Assembly: GCF_018603515.1 (NCBI RefSeq)
Contig: NZ_JACATN010000003.1
Coordinates: forward strand, 806,001 to 870,000
Direction of reading: 5' to 3'
DNA length: 64,000 bases
DNA from: Zobellia barbeyronii
GTDB taxonomy: Bacteria > Bacteroidota > Bacteroidia > Flavobacteriales > Flavobacteriaceae
The position numbers were made by a program, and so were the translations under genes. Shown in pieces: positions 11,615 to 46,085 of this stretch. The notes beneath the pieces are model-generated. The model worked only from the letters and a program-made list of their open reading frames with translations, did not search any database and was not told where the DNA came from. Numbering within the stretch: position 1 is the stretch's first letter; each line of letters starts with the position of its first letter.

Positions 11615-12697
11615 CTATCCGTTTACAATCTTCTCTTGATGATTGATTGACTCTTGGTGAATAGCTTTGAACATCTTAAGAATAAATTCTTCGCTCAATC
11701 CTTTTGATTCTCCTTCAAGAATCATAGCACCAAGAATTTGGTTCCATCGGTTAGATTGTAGCACCGCTACGTTCTTTTGTTTTTTCAACTCACCAATACC
11801 ATCTGAAACTTTCATACGCTTGCCCATAGCCTCTAGCAACTGATTATCAAGAATATCTATCTGAGCTCTTAAGTTGCTCAACTTAGCATTGTAATCTGCT
11901 TCACTATTAGTTTCTTTTCTGATTTTCAAATCTCTCATGATCTGTACTAATTTTGCTGGTGTTACCTGCTGAGCAGCATCACTCCAAGCATTATCAGGGT
12001 CAAAATGAGTCTCGATCATTAAACCATCAAAGTTCAAATCAAGTGCAGTTTGCGAAACATCAAAAATCATATCACGCTTACCTGTAATGTGAGATGGATC
12101 GTTGATCAATGGCAAATCTGGAAACTTATTTTGAAACTCAATAGCCAATTGCCATTCTGGAATGTTTCTGTATTTTGTTTTCTCATATGTAGAGAAACCT
12201 CTGTGAATAGCTCCTAAATTCTTTATACCAGCAGTATACAAACGCTCAATACCACCTAACCATAAGGCTAAATCTGGGTTAACTGGGTTTTTCACCAATA
12301 CAATCTTATCTGTACCTTCTAAAGCATCTGCAATTTCTTGCATGATAAACGGACTTACAGTAGAACGTGCTCCTATCCATAGAAGATCAACATCATTCTC
12401 TAAAGCTAGATCAACGTGGGCTCTGTTAGCAACCTCTGTAGCCGTTTTTAAGCCAGTCTCTTCTTTTACTTTCTTCAACCATTTTAACCCAATAGCACCA
12501 ACGCCTTCAAACATACCAGGACGTGTTCTTGGCTTCCAGATACCCGCACGGTAATAATTTACATCGGTATCTTTTAACTCGTGAGCAATACGCAACACTT
12601 GTTCCTCGGTTTCAGCACTACATGGCCCTGCTATTACTAGTGGATGGTCTAAACCCATATCATCCAACCATGTTCTCATTTCTTTTGAATTCTCCAT
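11615..12697 (-). CDS. Bifunctional 3-deoxy-7-phosphoheptulonate synthase / chorismate mutase
   Basis: First step of the shikimate pathway fused to chorismate mutase. Residues about 1-255 are a type I-beta DAHP synthase barrel (VIAGPCSAETEEQ, YYRAGIWKPRTRPGMFEG, LIETHFDPDNAWSDA-like metal and PEP sites). Residues about 270-360 form an AroQ-class helical chorismate mutase (LRAQIDILDNQLLEAMGKRM). Such fusions allow allosteric feedback through the mutase domain. The start overlaps the tyrA stop in a TAATG arrangement, so the two are translationally coupled. It is the last gene of the operon and ends at a strong terminator. Confidence 0.95.
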   Translation of the reverse strand: MENSKEMRTWLDDMGLDHPLVIAGPCSAETEEQVLRIAHELKDTDVNYYRAGIWKPRTRPGMFEGVGAIGLKWLKKVKEETGLKTATEVANRAHVDLALENDVDLLWIGARSTVSPFIMQEIADALEGTDKIVLVKNPVNPDLALWLGGIERLYTAGIKNLGAIHRGFSTYEKTKYRNIPEWQLAIEFQNKFPDLPLINDPSHITGKRDMIFDVSQTALDLNFDGLMIETHFDPDNAWSDAAQQVTPAKLVQIMRDLKIRKETNSEADYNAKLSNLRAQIDILDNQLLEAMGKRMKVSDGIGELKKQKNVAVLQSNRWNQILGAMILEGESKGLSEEFILKMFKAIHQESINHQEKIVNG

Positions 12698-13557
12698 TAC
12701 TTCTTGTTTAGTGGTATTCCGTTTAAAATTTCCTTTATTTTATTAGTGTCGTTCATTTCGTTAAAAATGCCCTTGTAATCTCCTTTTTCCAACAGTTGTT
12801 TAAACTCCTGAAGGTTCTGTATATATTCGGTCAATGTTTCGACCACATTCTCTTTATTCTGTTCAAAAATAGGCGTCCACATGGCCGGTGAACTCTTTGC
12901 TAACCTAACCGTGCTCTCAAAACCACTGCCCGCCATGTCAAAAATATCACGTTCATTTCTCTCTTTATCAATTACAGTCTTTCCCAACATAAAAGAGCTG
13001 ATGTGTGACAAATGCGACACGTATGCAATGTGCTTATCATGTGCTTCTGGATTCATATACCTAATACGCATTCCAATCTCTTGAAAAAGCTCTAAAGCCC
13101 TTTCTTGAAGTTTGAAAGCTGTTTTCTCTACCTCGCAAATAATATTGGTCTTACCTACATATAAATTTTCAATAGCTGCCCTGGGACCTGAATGCTCGGT
13201 ACCTGCAATAGGATGCGCTGCTAAATAATTTCTGCGCTTTGGATGTGCATCTAATGTTTTACAAATCAAACTTTTTGTAGACCCACCATCAAAAACCACA
13301 CAATTATCATTTACTGCATCCAATATCTTTGGAAGCTCCGTAATCATTACATCTACAGGAATACTCACAATGACCATATCGGCAAGTGCTAAATCTGCAT
13401 AACTCGATTCTAAATCGATTACACCCAAATCTAAGGCTTCCTTTATATGCGAAGCGCTTGTATCTATCCCGTAAATTTTGCTCTCTGGACGCAGGCGTTT
13501 GATGTCCTTTGCGAAAGAACCTCCTATTAACCCAACACCAACTATAAAAACGTTCAT
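12697..13557 (-). CDS. tyrA: Prephenate dehydrogenase
   Basis: Oxidative decarboxylation of prephenate to 4-hydroxyphenylpyruvate, the tyrosine branch. The N-terminal Rossmann motif is VGVGLIGGSFAKDI (residues 6-19). Downstream, HPIAGTEHSGP carries the catalytic His region and HDKHIAYVSHLSH the helical dimerisation domain of the family. 286 residues, no ACT domain. It is the third gene of the operon, 23 bases after the aminotransferase stop and overlapping the next gene by one base. Confidence 0.94.
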   Translation of the reverse strand: MNVFIVGVGLIGGSFAKDIKRLRPESKIYGIDTSASHIKEALDLGVIDLESSYADLALADMVIVSIPVDVMITELPKILDAVNDNCVVFDGGSTKSLICKTLDAHPKRRNYLAAHPIAGTEHSGPRAAIENLYVGKTNIICEVEKTAFKLQERALELFQEIGMRIRYMNPEAHDKHIAYVSHLSHISSFMLGKTVIDKERNERDIFDMAGSGFESTVRLAKSSPAMWTPIFEQNKENVVETLTEYIQNLQEFKQLLEKGDYKGIFNEMNDTNKIKEILNGIPLNKK

Positions 13558-13580: not shown

Positions 13581-14726
13581 CTAAAACCGACTAATTGCTT
13601 CTTTTATTTTATCTTCCGTAACGCATAATGAGAAACGAATATAACCTTCGCCATTGCTTCCGAAAATAGTTCCTGGGGTTATGAAAAGATTCTTTTCATA
13701 CAGCACCTCGTCTATAAATTCCTCGGCAGATTTGCTTCCTTCCGGCAATTTTGCCCAAATAAACATCCCAACAGCATCAGTATCGTAGGTACAATTTAAC
13801 TTGTCCGCTAATCGATACATTAACGCTCTTCTAGAGCTATATACCTCATTCAACTTATCAAACCATTCTTGACCGCTTTTCAGCGCCTCAATGGCTCCTT
13901 TTTGTATTCCGTAAAACATACCGGAATCCATGTTACTTTTCACCTTTAATACCGCATTAATATGCTCTGCATTTCCTAAAACCATTCCTACGCGCCATCC
14001 GGCCATGTTAAAGGTCTTACTTAGTGAATTGAGTTCTAACGCTACATCTTTTGCGCCATCAATAGCCAAAATACTGGCTGGTGAATCATTTAGCACAAAA
14101 CTGTACGGGTTATCGTTCACCAAAAGAATATCGTTCTTTTTGGCAAAAGCAACCAACTTTTTAAACTGAGCCTCTGTGGCCGTTGCTCCAGTTGGCATAT
14201 GTGGATAACTCGTCCACATAATTTTAACCTTGGTTAAATCATGCTCTTGTAATTCTTCCAAATCTGGAAACCATCCGCTTTCCGCGGTCAGGTTATAATA
14301 TTTAGCCTCTGCTCCCACCAATTTCGTAACCGACGTATATGTTGGATATCCTGGATTAGGAATCAAAGCTACATCGCCTTCGTTCAAGAAAGCCATGCTA
14401 ATATGCATAATGCCTTCTTTGGAGCCCATTAAAGGCAAAATCTCCGTAGATGCATCTAACGTAACACCAAATTTTAAACTATAAAAGTCAGCTACAGCCT
14501 CCCTTAACTCAGGTAAACCTTGATAACTTTGGTACTGATGCGCGCCACTTTCTAAAACAGCATCTTGAATACTTTTGATTATTGCTTCGGATGGAGCCAA
14601 GTCAGGACTACCGATACCCATATTGATAACAGGTCTTCCTTCGGCAATCAAACCACGTACCTCTCTAAGCTTCTTTGAGAAGTAATATTCTTCAACTGTA
14701 TGTAAACGATTTGCCGTCCGTATCAT
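13581..14726 (-). CDS. PLP-dependent class I/II aminotransferase of the aromatic operon
   Basis: Fold-type I aminotransferase of 381 residues. The PLP-lysine lies in NSLSKTFNMAGWRVG (about residue 230), and NPGYPTY, TSYPHMPTGA and NDNPYSFV are typical substrate and cofactor loop segments. Its position between pheA and tyrA, with a 4-base ATGA overlap with pheA, argues that it transaminates phenylpyruvate and 4-hydroxyphenylpyruvate to Phe and Tyr. The family also contains methionine and LL-diaminopimelate aminotransferases, so the substrate is inferred from context only. Confidence 0.88.
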   Translation of the reverse strand: MIRTANRLHTVEEYYFSKKLREVRGLIAEGRPVINMGIGSPDLAPSEAIIKSIQDAVLESGAHQYQSYQGLPELREAVADFYSLKFGVTLDASTEILPLMGSKEGIMHISMAFLNEGDVALIPNPGYPTYTSVTKLVGAEAKYYNLTAESGWFPDLEELQEHDLTKVKIMWTSYPHMPTGATATEAQFKKLVAFAKKNDILLVNDNPYSFVLNDSPASILAIDGAKDVALELNSLSKTFNMAGWRVGMVLGNAEHINAVLKVKSNMDSGMFYGIQKGAIEALKSGQEWFDKLNEVYSSRRALMYRLADKLNCTYDTDAVGMFIWAKLPEGSKSAEEFIDEVLYEKNLFITPGTIFGSNGEGYIRFSLCVTEDKIKEAISRF

Positions 14727-15550
14727 ATTCTAGCATTTTTATATTCACCCAACACTTTAAAGTCTTCGGCCATGATGTTCAACAGTGCTTTTGCCTTGTC
14801 AAAATTGTCATATTCGTCAAAAGTTACGTCTACAAAAAAGGCATACTTCCAAGGTGTCTCTATTATGGGTAACGACTGTATTTTTGTTAAATTCAATCTG
14901 CAATCGCTCATTACGTTAAGCACAGCAGCAAGACTCCCGCGTTTATGGTCTGTAACAAAGCGTAACGAAGCTTTGTTAATTTCCTCTTTTGGAAGCTCCT
15001 TATTTTTTGTTTTTACAATGATAAAACGGGTTGCATTATTTTGAATGGTCTGTATGTTGTCCGCTACGATGTCCAAATCATATAAACTGGCAGCAACTGC
15101 CGGTGCTATTGCTGCAATATGGGTTAATTGTTGGTCCTGAATACGCTTTGCAGTTTCAGCTGTATCTACATCTTCCACCATTTTAATCTGCGGATAATCG
15201 CCAAAAAATTCCTTGCATTGCAATAAAGCCATTGGGTGTGAACGAACCTCTTCTATATCAGATATTTTTTGTCCCTTTAAGACCATCAAATTGTGATGTA
15301 TGTTCAAGTAATGCTCACCTACAATATGCAAGTCTTTATGGTAAACCAATGCATAATTAGGGATGATTGAGCCCGCTATAGAGTTCTCAATAGCCATTAC
15401 TCCAATATCTGCTGTTTTTTTCAGCAGTTGGTCCACCAAGAAATCAAATGACATGCATTCAACCATATCCACATTATCGTCAAAATACTCACGGGCCACT
15501 TGGTGGTGGTTGGATCCCTTAATTCCTTGAATGGCTACTTTTAATTTCAT
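14723..15550 (-). CDS. pheA: Prephenate dehydratase
   Basis: Converts prephenate to phenylpyruvate, the committed step to phenylalanine. I choose the start at 15550 (MKLKVAIQGIKGSNHHQVA). The frame runs upstream to a TTG at 15613, but that extension overlaps the terminator hairpin and lacks homology-like character. The dehydratase core carries ENSIAGSI and NATRFIIV (the catalytic Thr-Arg-Phe motif). The C-terminus (about 190-275) is an ACT domain with IQSLPI where proteobacterial enzymes have ESRP, consistent with allosteric Phe control. About 275 residues. It is the first structural gene of the operon, preceded by a Phe-rich leader attenuator. Confidence 0.95.
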   Translation of the reverse strand: MKLKVAIQGIKGSNHHQVAREYFDDNVDMVECMSFDFLVDQLLKKTADIGVMAIENSIAGSIIPNYALVYHKDLHIVGEHYLNIHHNLMVLKGQKISDIEEVRSHPMALLQCKEFFGDYPQIKMVEDVDTAETAKRIQDQQLTHIAAIAPAVAASLYDLDIVADNIQTIQNNATRFIIVKTKNKELPKEEINKASLRFVTDHKRGSLAAVLNVMSDCRLNLTKIQSLPIIETPWKYAFFVDVTFDEYDNFDKAKALLNIMAEDFKVLGEYKNARI

Positions 15551-15611: not shown

Positions 15612-15640
15612 AAAAAAAGTCCCGTTTTACACGGGACTTT
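15612..15640 (-). terminator. Attenuator terminator upstream of pheA
   Basis: Minus-strand stem AAAGTCCCG / CGGGACTTT (9 bp, perfect) with a 7-base loop (TGTAAAA), followed by seven T residues. It lies between the leader peptide stop at 15665 and the pheA start at 15550. The 5' arm can alternatively pair with GGGACT at 15677-15672 inside the leader. Confidence 0.95.
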
Positions 15641-15664
15641 AATTTGTTTATATCATGCAATATT

Positions 15665-15736
15665 TTACAACAGTCCCATACCTCTCTTAAAAAAGAAGTA
15701 AAAATAAAAACCGCTAAAAAAGAATTGCTTTGTCAT
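15665..15736 (-). CDS. Phe-rich leader peptide of the pheA operon (pheL-like)
   Basis: A 23-codon open frame (ATG to TAA) that contains QFFFSGFYFYFFFKR: eight Phe codons (residues 5-7, 10, 12, 14-16) and two Tyr codons (11, 13). It ends 25 bases before a perfect terminator hairpin that precedes pheA. The final codons, Gly-Leu-Leu-stop, contain GGGACT, which is complementary to the 5' arm of the terminator. A ribosome stalled on the Phe/Tyr codons leaves this segment free to form an antiterminator; a ribosome reaching the stop masks it and lets the terminator form. That is the logic of proteobacterial pheL-type attenuation. The reading is direct from the sequence; regulation is inferred. Confidence 0.92.
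   Translation of the reverse strand: MTKQFFFSGFYFYFFFKRGMGLL
15672..15677 (-). promoter_or_regulatory. Antiterminator strand within the leader peptide gene
   Basis: GGGACT on the minus strand is identical to part of the terminator 3' arm and complementary to AGTCCC at 15638-15633 in the 5' arm, with possible G-U/A-U extension outward. Pairing would preclude the terminator. Confidence 0.75.
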
Positions 15737-15787
15737 AACACACTTAAACTTCGGCTAAAGTAACAATTAAATTTAAAAATAAACTGA

Positions 15788-21025: not shown

Positions 21026-21101
21026 GCGTTCGAGCGGGCTATTCGCTAAATTTTTTAAAGCTAAATGGACTTTAAAAAGATATCGCTGCTATCCCTAACG
21101 C
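21026..21101. repeat. Dispersed intergenic hairpin element (Flavobacteriia type)
   Basis: A 76-base unit bounded by GCGTT (21026-21030) and AACGC (21097-21101). It has the characteristic flanks CGAGCGGGCTATTCGCT and CTGCTATCCCTAACGC and a central perfect stem TTTTTAAAG / CTTTAAAAA. From memory, elements with these two flanks and a variable central hairpin recur between genes in Flavobacteriia. It separates metF from the upstream metH cluster. No protein is encoded. Confidence 0.6.
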
Positions 21102-21121
21102 TTCTTTTTACTTTAAATTAA

Positions 21122-25178: not shown

Positions 25179-25298
25179 CTAATTGAGCATCCATTTATAA
25201 TTGAATTCGATATCAGAAATATCAAAAACATTATTTAAAATCAATCTACAAACAATTATCAAGCAAAGGAATAAGGACAATTATAATTGCCTCTCTTT

Positions 25299-25402
25299 GT
25301 TATCTGTCCTACAAATATGTAGGATAGAATGTAGCACCTTCTTTATAAGAAAAGGGTTGCCAAGGTTTCACAGGGTCTAATCCCTCCGCCTTTCTTGATA
25401 AC
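25299..25402 (-). promoter_or_regulatory. SAM-I (S-box) riboswitch upstream of split metH
   Basis: On the minus strand P1 is GTTATC (25402-25397) / GATAAC (25304-25299). The core reads AAGAAAGGCGGAGGGA, then GACCCTGTGAAACC, TTGGCAACC and AAGGTGCTACATTC in the order and spacing of the SAM-I class. The variable P4 is a short AT-rich hairpin of CCTACA/TGTAGG. It lies in the 391-base gap before the homocysteine methyltransferase gene. SAM binding should reduce expression; the downstream sequence has no clear terminator, so translational control through the Shine-Dalgarno site is plausible. Confidence 0.95.
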
Positions 25403-25494
25403 AGTCACGTATTTTAATGAACGATTTGCAAAGTAACGCCACATATGGTTCAAAACCAAAGAAACCTAGTTGTTTTTGGTACTTTGCGTTAGTT

Positions 25495-44347: not shown

Positions 44348-44472
44348 AATCTTAGATTTTTAATTGTTATTTAAAATAATTAAAAGCCCAACCCTAAACT
44401 GCAGCCTCGCAATTAGGTAAAATATCAAAAGAGTTATAAGAAGGCAAAAGATTAGTATGAGTAATCTATTTT

Positions 44473-44581
44473 GTTATCTGTCCCAATATTACAGGGATAG
44501 AATGTAGCACCTTCTCTGCGCAAAGAGGCAAAGGGTTGCTAAGGTTTCAAAGGGTCTATTCCCTCCACCTTTCTTGATAAC
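44473..44581 (-). promoter_or_regulatory. SAM-I (S-box) riboswitch upstream of metY
   Basis: P1 is GTTATC (44581-44576) / GATAAC (44478-44473). The core reads AAGAAAGGTGGAGGGAAT, GACCCTTTGAAACC, TTAGCAACC, AAGGTGCTACATTC in SAM-I order. P3 is a GC-containing stem (GCCTCTTTGCGCAGAG...) and P4 a short hairpin of TCCC/GGGA. It differs from the metH copy in P3 and P4 but keeps the core. It fills most of the 312-base gap between metK and metY. Confidence 0.95.
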
Positions 44582-44612
44582 TATTCAATACGTGTTTGAA
44601 CTTTTGTGAATG

Positions 44613-45916: not shown

Positions 45917-45989
45917 AACAAACTTTTATTTTTATAAAAGGATTTGAACGCAATGCCCGAAGAAGATGATGTGAAAAAATTCAACATCA

Positions 45990-46067
45990 ACTGCTTTAGC
46001 ATTTTTTTTGTTTCATAGTCTAACTCAGACTCAAAACAGAGGTTGCAATCAGTCAAATCCCTCCTCT
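45990..46067 (-). promoter_or_regulatory. SAM-II-type riboswitch (long-loop variant) upstream of metK
   Basis: Minus strand: P1 AGAGG (46067-46063) / CCTCT (46042-46038) encloses GATTTGACTGATTGCAA, closely matching the conserved SAM-II loop. A long A-rich linker leads to GCTAAAGCAG (46000-45991), the conserved GCTAAA element. Loop bases ACTG (46053-46050) can pair with CAGT (45993-45990) to close the pseudoknot. The linker insertion is larger than in the compact alphaproteobacterial type. The element ends 73 bases before the metK start. SAM binding is expected to lower translation. Confidence 0.85.
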
Positions 46068-46085
46068 TTATTTATAACTAGGACG

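Follow-up and report, generated by a model that had tools for sequence, protein, structure and literature searches.

A predicted ribosome-mediated attenuator with a mixed Phe/Tyr code before the pheA operon of Zobellia barbeyronii and its relatives in Bacteroidia

Introduction

The pheA gene of enterobacteria is controlled by ribosome-mediated transcription attenuation through the pheL leader, the closest described counterpart of the element analyzed here. The two share a Phe-rich leader peptide, a terminator before pheA, and an antiterminator that excludes the terminator and contains the end of the leader frame. The element in Zobellia barbeyronii differs from pheL in its mixed Phe/Tyr(/Trp) code, in having no Shine-Dalgarno-like motif, in an operon that includes tyrA and a DAHP synthase gene, and in a variable 1:2 hairpin.

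Within the phylum, the Bacteroid-trp RNA (RF01692) is listed for Bacteroidetes in PMC2864571. Elsewhere in the Z. barbeyronii genome it matches at 54 bits (gathering score 49), ahead of a gene for anthranilate synthase, and this match also combines an amino-acid-rich short ORF with a terminator. It has Trp codons and another sequence, and RF01692 has no match in the window. PMC7366714 mentions short ORFs in B. thetaiotaomicron that resemble leader peptides. PMC9723704 (ISME Commun. 2021) describes structured 5′ elements that have no Rfam hits and precede pheA and hisG in Flavobacterium psychrophilum and in further genera of the Flavobacteriaceae; it also reports leader-peptide "clues" and proposes attenuation for amino-acid operons. 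Its pheA element is very probably the one analyzed here, judging from the gene, the family, the missing Rfam hit, and the proposed attenuation. The accessible portions of its text do not present a leader sequence, a pairing, or a codon logic, nor do they extend the range past the family. It was the only account of a pheA element in Flavobacteriaceae that we found in the open-licence PMC literature, where neither mixed Phe/Tyr leaders nor aromatic leader attenuators in series turned up for Bacteroidota.

A previous interpretation made from the DNA letters (the sequence-only reading) was not aware of the element as a standard annotation in this phylum. The element reaches the cut-off of no Rfam family, and PMC9723704 places the core idea partly in print for Flavobacteriaceae. 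The present analysis adds the class-wide extent, the pairing logic, the mixed aromatic code, the lack of a Shine-Dalgarno-like motif, and seven regions with serial attenuators.

Results

The leader and terminator upstream of pheA

The window is the 64,000-nucleotide stretch of contig NZ_JACATN010000003.1 (positions 806,001 to 870,000) that was analyzed, and its features are collected in Table 1. The assigned gene identities agree with the four-gene operon proposed in the sequence-only reading, which includes the Tyr branch and the first shikimate step. The next gene after the DAHP synthase gene, about 250 nt further, encodes RsgA. The same-strand gene that precedes the leader occupies 16587-16120 and is followed by a terminator-like hairpin of its own (16102-16064). 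The window also contains three riboswitches in a span of 21 kb, two of the SAM (S-box) class and one SAM-II (25297-25404, 44471-44583, and 45986-46072, all on the minus strand) and a Flavo-1 RNA match at 21028-21106 on the minus strand that scores 42.6 bits against a cut-off of 42.

Table 1. Positions of the operon genes and leader elements in the window.
Feature	Coordinates	Strand	Details	Basis
Putative Bacteroidota −7 promoter element	15755..15762	−	TACTTTAG	Direct reading
Leader peptide ORF	15665..15736	−	MTKQFFFSGFYFYFFFKRGMGLL*; ATG at 15736, TAA at 15665	Direct reading and conservation in relatives
Sensor codons	15689..15724	−	Phe/Tyr run, codons 5-16	Direct reading and masked folding
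Segment 2	15672..15680	−	TATGGGACT; 9-bp duplex, −13.7 kcal/mol	Masked folding
Intrinsic terminator	15616..15640	−	10 bp, loop of 5, then T run	
Segment 3 (terminator 5′ arm)	15631..15640	−	AAAGTCCCGT	
pheA, prephenate dehydratase (PF00800)	14723..15550	−		
Aminotransferase class I/II	13581..14726	−		
tyrA, prephenate dehydrogenase	12697..13557	−		Above NCBIfam cut-off
DAHP synthase fused to chorismate mutase	11615..12697	−		

The locus has a short aromatic-codon ORF and, between it and the first structural gene, an intrinsic terminator. The minus-strand reading agrees with the earlier description of a 23-codon frame with eight Phe and two Tyr codons. The terminator stem, AAAGTCCCGT/ACGGGACTTT, closes a GTAAA loop with all 10 of its 10 pairs perfect; the stem had been called perfect at 9 bp, and the 9 bp are the core of these 10 pairs. 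The hairpin lies 24 nt after the leader stop codon and 65 nt before the pheA ATG at 15550, so the distances given before (25 and 62) were off by a few bases. Segment 2 is located near the end of the leader ORF, and its partner is the terminator 5′ arm, making it the candidate antiterminator. The sequence-only reading had placed GGGACT at 15677-15672 with its complement AGTCCC in the terminator 5′ arm, and both the coordinates and the match are correct. Of the 645 ATG ORFs of 12-40 amino acids in the window, a count that includes nested starts, only 3 are followed at 70 nt or less by a perfect terminator with a stem of 7 or more. The leader is the only aromatic-rich ORF of the three, with an aromatic fraction of 0.43 compared to 0.08 for the next.

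The Bacteroidota-type −7 promoter consensus is TAnnTTnG. The matching element would place the transcription start near 15750. When about 50 nt ahead of each leader ATG were searched, 102 of 133 leaders had this consensus, compared to 14.9 expected from shuffles, at a median distance of 26 nt from the ATG. A scan for sigma-70-type promoters was uninformative (28 found versus 26.1 expected). None of the 133 leaders has a Shine-Dalgarno-like motif before its start, and A is common just 5′ of the leader start in this set.

No Rfam family was detected at the leader locus at the gathering level, and none reached its cut-off in the 20 related loci tested. A permissive search gave a full-length match to the RF01859 Phe_leader model at 32.5 bits, where the gathering score is 55; the other permissive hits at the locus were weaker. 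The pheL mechanism invoked by the sequence-only reading therefore holds as a likeness in working and not as membership: the element is predicted to work like pheL and does not belong to the Rfam family.

The leader is conserved in most sampled families of Bacteroidia

We applied an automated rule to 168 pheA upstream regions, one per genome, from 35 families (30 relatives, 29 from a class sample, and 109 more). It requires a short ORF in which 5 or more of 10 codons are Phe/Tyr/Trp, with a terminator after this ORF. For most regions, the span scanned was only 420 nt. The rule identified leaders in 135 of the 168 regions, representing 26 of the 35 families of the class, and in 50 of the 52 regions from the window's own family. 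Among controls, it identified 11 of the 168 reverse complements and 6 of the 840 Markov copies. Stretches of 480 nt upstream of hisG, ilvD, and homoserine dehydrogenase domain matches, some lying inside coding sequence, gave 2 of 50. The homoserine dehydrogenase loci match one domain within a long fused gene, whose start most of them do not reach, which makes them invalid as a test for Thr/Ile leaders. ORFs with at least 7 aromatics were found in 124 of 168 regions, 2 of 168 reverse complements, 3 of 840 Markov copies, and none of the 50 control stretches. Among loci outside the class, 28 were examined from 77 genomes with a PF00800 match; none of the 28 fits the rule, and the number is still zero with 1.5 kb of upstream sequence. 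Two pheA matches fell outside the sample (G177, which is partial, and G082).

A set of 80 named loci was also compared, and the frame and hairpin are kept in all 79 usable ones (L288 has no upstream DNA). Their titles are nearly all Flavobacteriaceae with one labelled as a Rhizobium MAG, and the set partly overlaps the genome sample; L260 and L010 come from one contig, that of Pseudozobellia thermophila, the closest named relative among the loci compared. The sequence-only reading had proposed an alignment of the upstream regions as its check. The aromatic short frame and the covarying terminator and antiterminator arms are conserved in most related regions. Close relatives that lost the frame and kept the hairpin, the outcome it had set against itself, were not seen; all nine genomes of the genus that were searched and the 79 named loci keep both.

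Regions without a leader, by family and gene linkage

Outside the window's family, regions that the rule failed to identify came from f27 (8 of 8), f30 (8 of 13), f80 (4 of 4), f5 (2 of 2), and f76 (2 of 2), with one each from f12, f35, f38, f46, f67, f84, and f90. The two failures within the window's family are L025, which has no leader, and L023 (genome G020), in which a displaced leader, MNTTVYTYQTWNYFFFSKRNETSYV, stands 577 nt before pheA. The DNA separating the two includes repeat-like sequence and GC-rich hairpins. Inspection by eye of L123 (f46) revealed a leader followed by a terminator hairpin with a long loop. With these two later finds, leaders are known in 137 of the 168 regions, and they were not added to the 135. 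Re-examination of 1.5-1.7 kb upstream of pheA in the 31 leaderless regions found no ATG ORF with 6 aromatics in 10 codons. L126 (G081), a distant region from family f38, has a terminator hairpin before pheA and no aromatic ORF; possibly the leader was lost and the hairpin kept.

Leaderless pheA genes of families f30, f80, f5, and f90 (L346-L352, L359, and L189) tend to encode a different protein start. In f80, f90, f5, and L346 and L347 of f30, the start is YLGPEG, FLGPEA, or LLGPENT compared to IAIQG. Leaderless pheA genes with the altered start are perhaps another type of prephenate dehydratase.

Tabulation by hand showed linkage of pheA to the DAHP synthase gene, on one strand and no more than a few kb apart, in 42 of the 45 relatives that have pheA. 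The leader is present in 41 of these 42 linked genomes, a count that takes in the displaced L023 and the tandem L167, and G047 is the only linked genome without one. None of the three genomes with an unlinked pheA (G030, G040, and G053) has a leader.

The antiterminator pairing covaries

The best duplex between the stretch following the aromatic core and the terminator 5′ arm was computed for each of the 135 positive regions. The mean energy of the segment 2 duplex was −15.5 kcal/mol with its own arm compared to −10.1 kcal/mol with the arms of other families and −7.1 kcal/mol for shuffled segments. When each of the 26 families contributed a single leader, matched pairs averaged −15.45 kcal/mol compared to −10.14 kcal/mol (sd 0.63) for permuted pairings, and the lowest of 2000 permutations was −12.30 kcal/mol. 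By this computational comparison of matched and mismatched duplexes, the leaders contain a predicted antiterminator that is mutually exclusive with the terminator and covaries with it. The covariation is visible by eye in the letters of the arms: GGGACT/AGTCCC in the window, GAGACT/AGTCTC in L012, AGGACT/AGTCCT in L028, GAGGCTT/AAGCCTC in L030, and CGAGACCTT with AAGGTCTCG in L024.

Analyses of single leaders used 133 of the 135. L167 and L135 contribute to the pairing averages and were left out of the 133 because the automated ORF lies more than 100 nt from the terminator; both are tandem regions with a nearer leader. The antiterminator helix begins a median of 13 nt after the last aromatic codon (quartiles 11 and 14; 11 in the window) and a median of 13 nt before the stop codon (13 in the window). 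With a ribosome footprint like that of E. coli and the spacing found in the window, the helix would just come free when a ribosome occupies the last aromatic codons, and a ribosome at the stop codon would cover it. In 14 of the 133 leaders, the helix begins after the stop codon begins, and it is less certain there that a terminating ribosome would cover the helix.

Masked folding used the RNA up to the terminator loop without the 3′ arm, because the terminator always wins in the full-length molecule. In the window, placing Phe15 in the A site leaves a predicted antiterminator of −12.4 kcal/mol, which is shortened to −10.0 kcal/mol with Phe16 and is gone from Lys17 on, where only a −3.9 kcal/mol pairing is left. 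Wherever the ribosome is placed on the full-length leader RNA of the window, the terminator dominates (P 1.00), and the switch would therefore depend on the order of folding during transcription. The 2:3 pairing has P > 0.5 with a stalled ribosome in 131 of 133 leaders, which is weak evidence because the helix was preselected as the best duplex and is left free by construction.

A 1:2 hairpin that is built mostly from the U-rich codons and buries segment 2 has P 0.89 in the ribosome-free window leader, and a consensus fold of ten near relatives contains the 1:2 and 3:4 hairpins. Shuffling the upstream sequence lowered the family-mean P for 1:2 from 0.23 to 0.09 (Wilcoxon p 0.002). A 1:2 hairpin common to all lineages is unsupported, since 1:2 is stronger than 2:3 in only 45 of 133 leaders. 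A protective hairpin is thus predicted for the window and not in general, and the behavior of an untranslated leader may differ among lineages.

Tandem units and other leaders in the genome

Two aromatic leaders in series were found in 7 of the 168 regions, from five families: L099, L130, and L135 (f62, all three of that family), L131 (f75), L145 (f35), L167 (f13), and L177 (f47). A terminator-like hairpin follows both units in each region, with a weak score for the first unit of L135. An eighth region with two aromatic ORFs, L004, was not counted, since the start of the leader is overlapped there by the second ORF and no separate terminator comes first. In one genome (G059:C25:19052-19624), the pheA match below a tandem attenuator covers residues 3-192 only and has an in-frame TAG. 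To our knowledge, the signals of the Salmonella mgtCBR leader are other than aromatic shortage. The seven pheA leaders resemble the mgtCBR tandem attenuators in having two short ORFs in one attenuated leader, and they differ in the operon and in carrying aromatic-rich leaders in both units, as far as mgtCBR is described in the accessible text of PMC3641672.

The Z. barbeyronii genome has further leaders before other amino-acid operons. A Trp leader, MNRNNSNTWWWNNSRQIS, with a terminator coincides with the Bacteroid-trp match and precedes the trpE/anthranilate synthase operon, which was assigned by Pfam (L166, from 497; leader identified by eye). A His leader, MKNRTTHHHIHTHAQAR, with a terminator-like hairpin precedes hisG (L217, minus strand, about 1195). 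Upstream of ilvD (L227, minus strand, about 1029) is an Ile/Val leader, MKIKAHTIVVIDVILRRE, which likewise has a terminator-like hairpin. These leaders suggest that leader-peptide attenuation is a general habit of the organism.

Amino acids sensed and alternative explanations

Joint sensing of Phe and Tyr, which the sequence-only reading had suggested, is likely, because codons for both occur in all 133 leaders, and it is the simplest reading of the sequences; Trp codons are also present in 50. Family means of the aromatic composition are 0.55 Phe, 0.41 Tyr, and 0.04 Trp, and the codons 15-26 nt before the helix are 44-61% Phe and 35-47% Tyr. A leader that senses Phe only, with Tyr as a tolerated filler that has similar U-rich codons, would fit the mostly Phe run of the window and the two tandem leaders of L167, which are without Tyr and outside the 133. 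Exchanges between similar leaders argue otherwise: Tyr was the partner in 69 of the 97 that involve Phe, in pairs that are not independent, whereas the one-base neighbors of Phe account for four exchanges with Leu and none with Ser, Cys, Ile, or Val. Aromatic codons differ at positions 1, 2, and 3 in 396, 1527, and 2106 cases over 932 pairs, which agrees with Phe/Tyr interchange plus synonymous change. The operon also includes tyrA, and we consider sensing of Phe only unlikely. Aromatic-rich nascent peptides could also act in the exit tunnel, arresting the ribosome on a ligand in the manner of TnaC rather than by codon starvation. Sequence-specific arrest peptides are not known to vary widely in sequence, but the order and number of Phe, Tyr, and Trp and the N-terminal residues vary widely among families here, making arrest of this type highly improbable.

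A terminator before a biosynthetic operon would also suit a riboswitch or a T-box that binds a metabolite or tRNA. The Rfam searches of the locus and the 20 related loci speak against such an RNA, as do the shortness of the leader and its conserved content, which is coding, and we give this explanation almost no credence. Phe-rich ORFs by themselves are no great rarity in AT-rich DNA: 11 of 2000 first-order Markov copies of the 541-nt region gave an ORF with 10 or more aromatics, and a score of at least 5 was reached in 58 of the 168 reverse complements. A chance ORF before an ordinary terminator or the end of a small RNA is nonetheless barely conceivable given the conservation, the combined control rates, and the covarying pairing. 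An ORF followed by a 9-bp terminator occurred in none of the 2000 Markov copies, and the preceding gene already has a terminator-like hairpin. The RNA released by termination could still have a second function. Attenuation by a translating ribosome, as proposed in the sequence-only reading, is backed by the conservation, by pairing that is stronger within species than between families, and by the switch seen in masked folding.

Discussion

The pheA-aminotransferase-tyrA-DAHP synthase operon is very likely controlled by a ribosome-mediated transcription attenuator. The parts of this attenuator, their conservation, the covarying 2:3 pairing, and the spacing are established by computation. The element is well conserved, has a mixed aromatic code, and is occasionally duplicated in series. 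From these findings we infer translation of the leader, the transcription start site, termination, and a response to both Phe and Tyr. In the proposed mechanism, RNA polymerase would start just 5′ of the leader, and a ribosome behind it would translate the aromatic-rich peptide. A shortage of Phe-tRNA or Tyr-tRNA would halt the ribosome in the Phe/Tyr run, leaving segment 2 free to pair with segment 3, so that the terminator does not form and the operon is transcribed. When charged tRNA is plentiful, the ribosome would reach the stop codon and cover segment 2, allowing the 3:4 hairpin to terminate transcription.

On balance, the evidence tips towards an old, Bacteroidia-wide Phe and Tyr (and in part Trp) attenuator without a Shine-Dalgarno motif that belongs to a set of leaders in one genome (aromatic, Trp, His, and Ile/Val), with doubling in series in five or more families. 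If this is true, transcription-translation coupling must be tight in Bacteroidia, at least over leaders, and the tandem versions would be natural two-step gates. The element would provide a testable switch for aromatic amino-acid synthesis in a large class, one that works only if the ribosome closely trails RNA polymerase. It would thereby allow a test of coupling in Bacteroidota, whose leaders here have no Shine-Dalgarno-like motifs, and the loci, of which the 20 tested reach no Rfam cut-off, are a ready set for a new RNA family.
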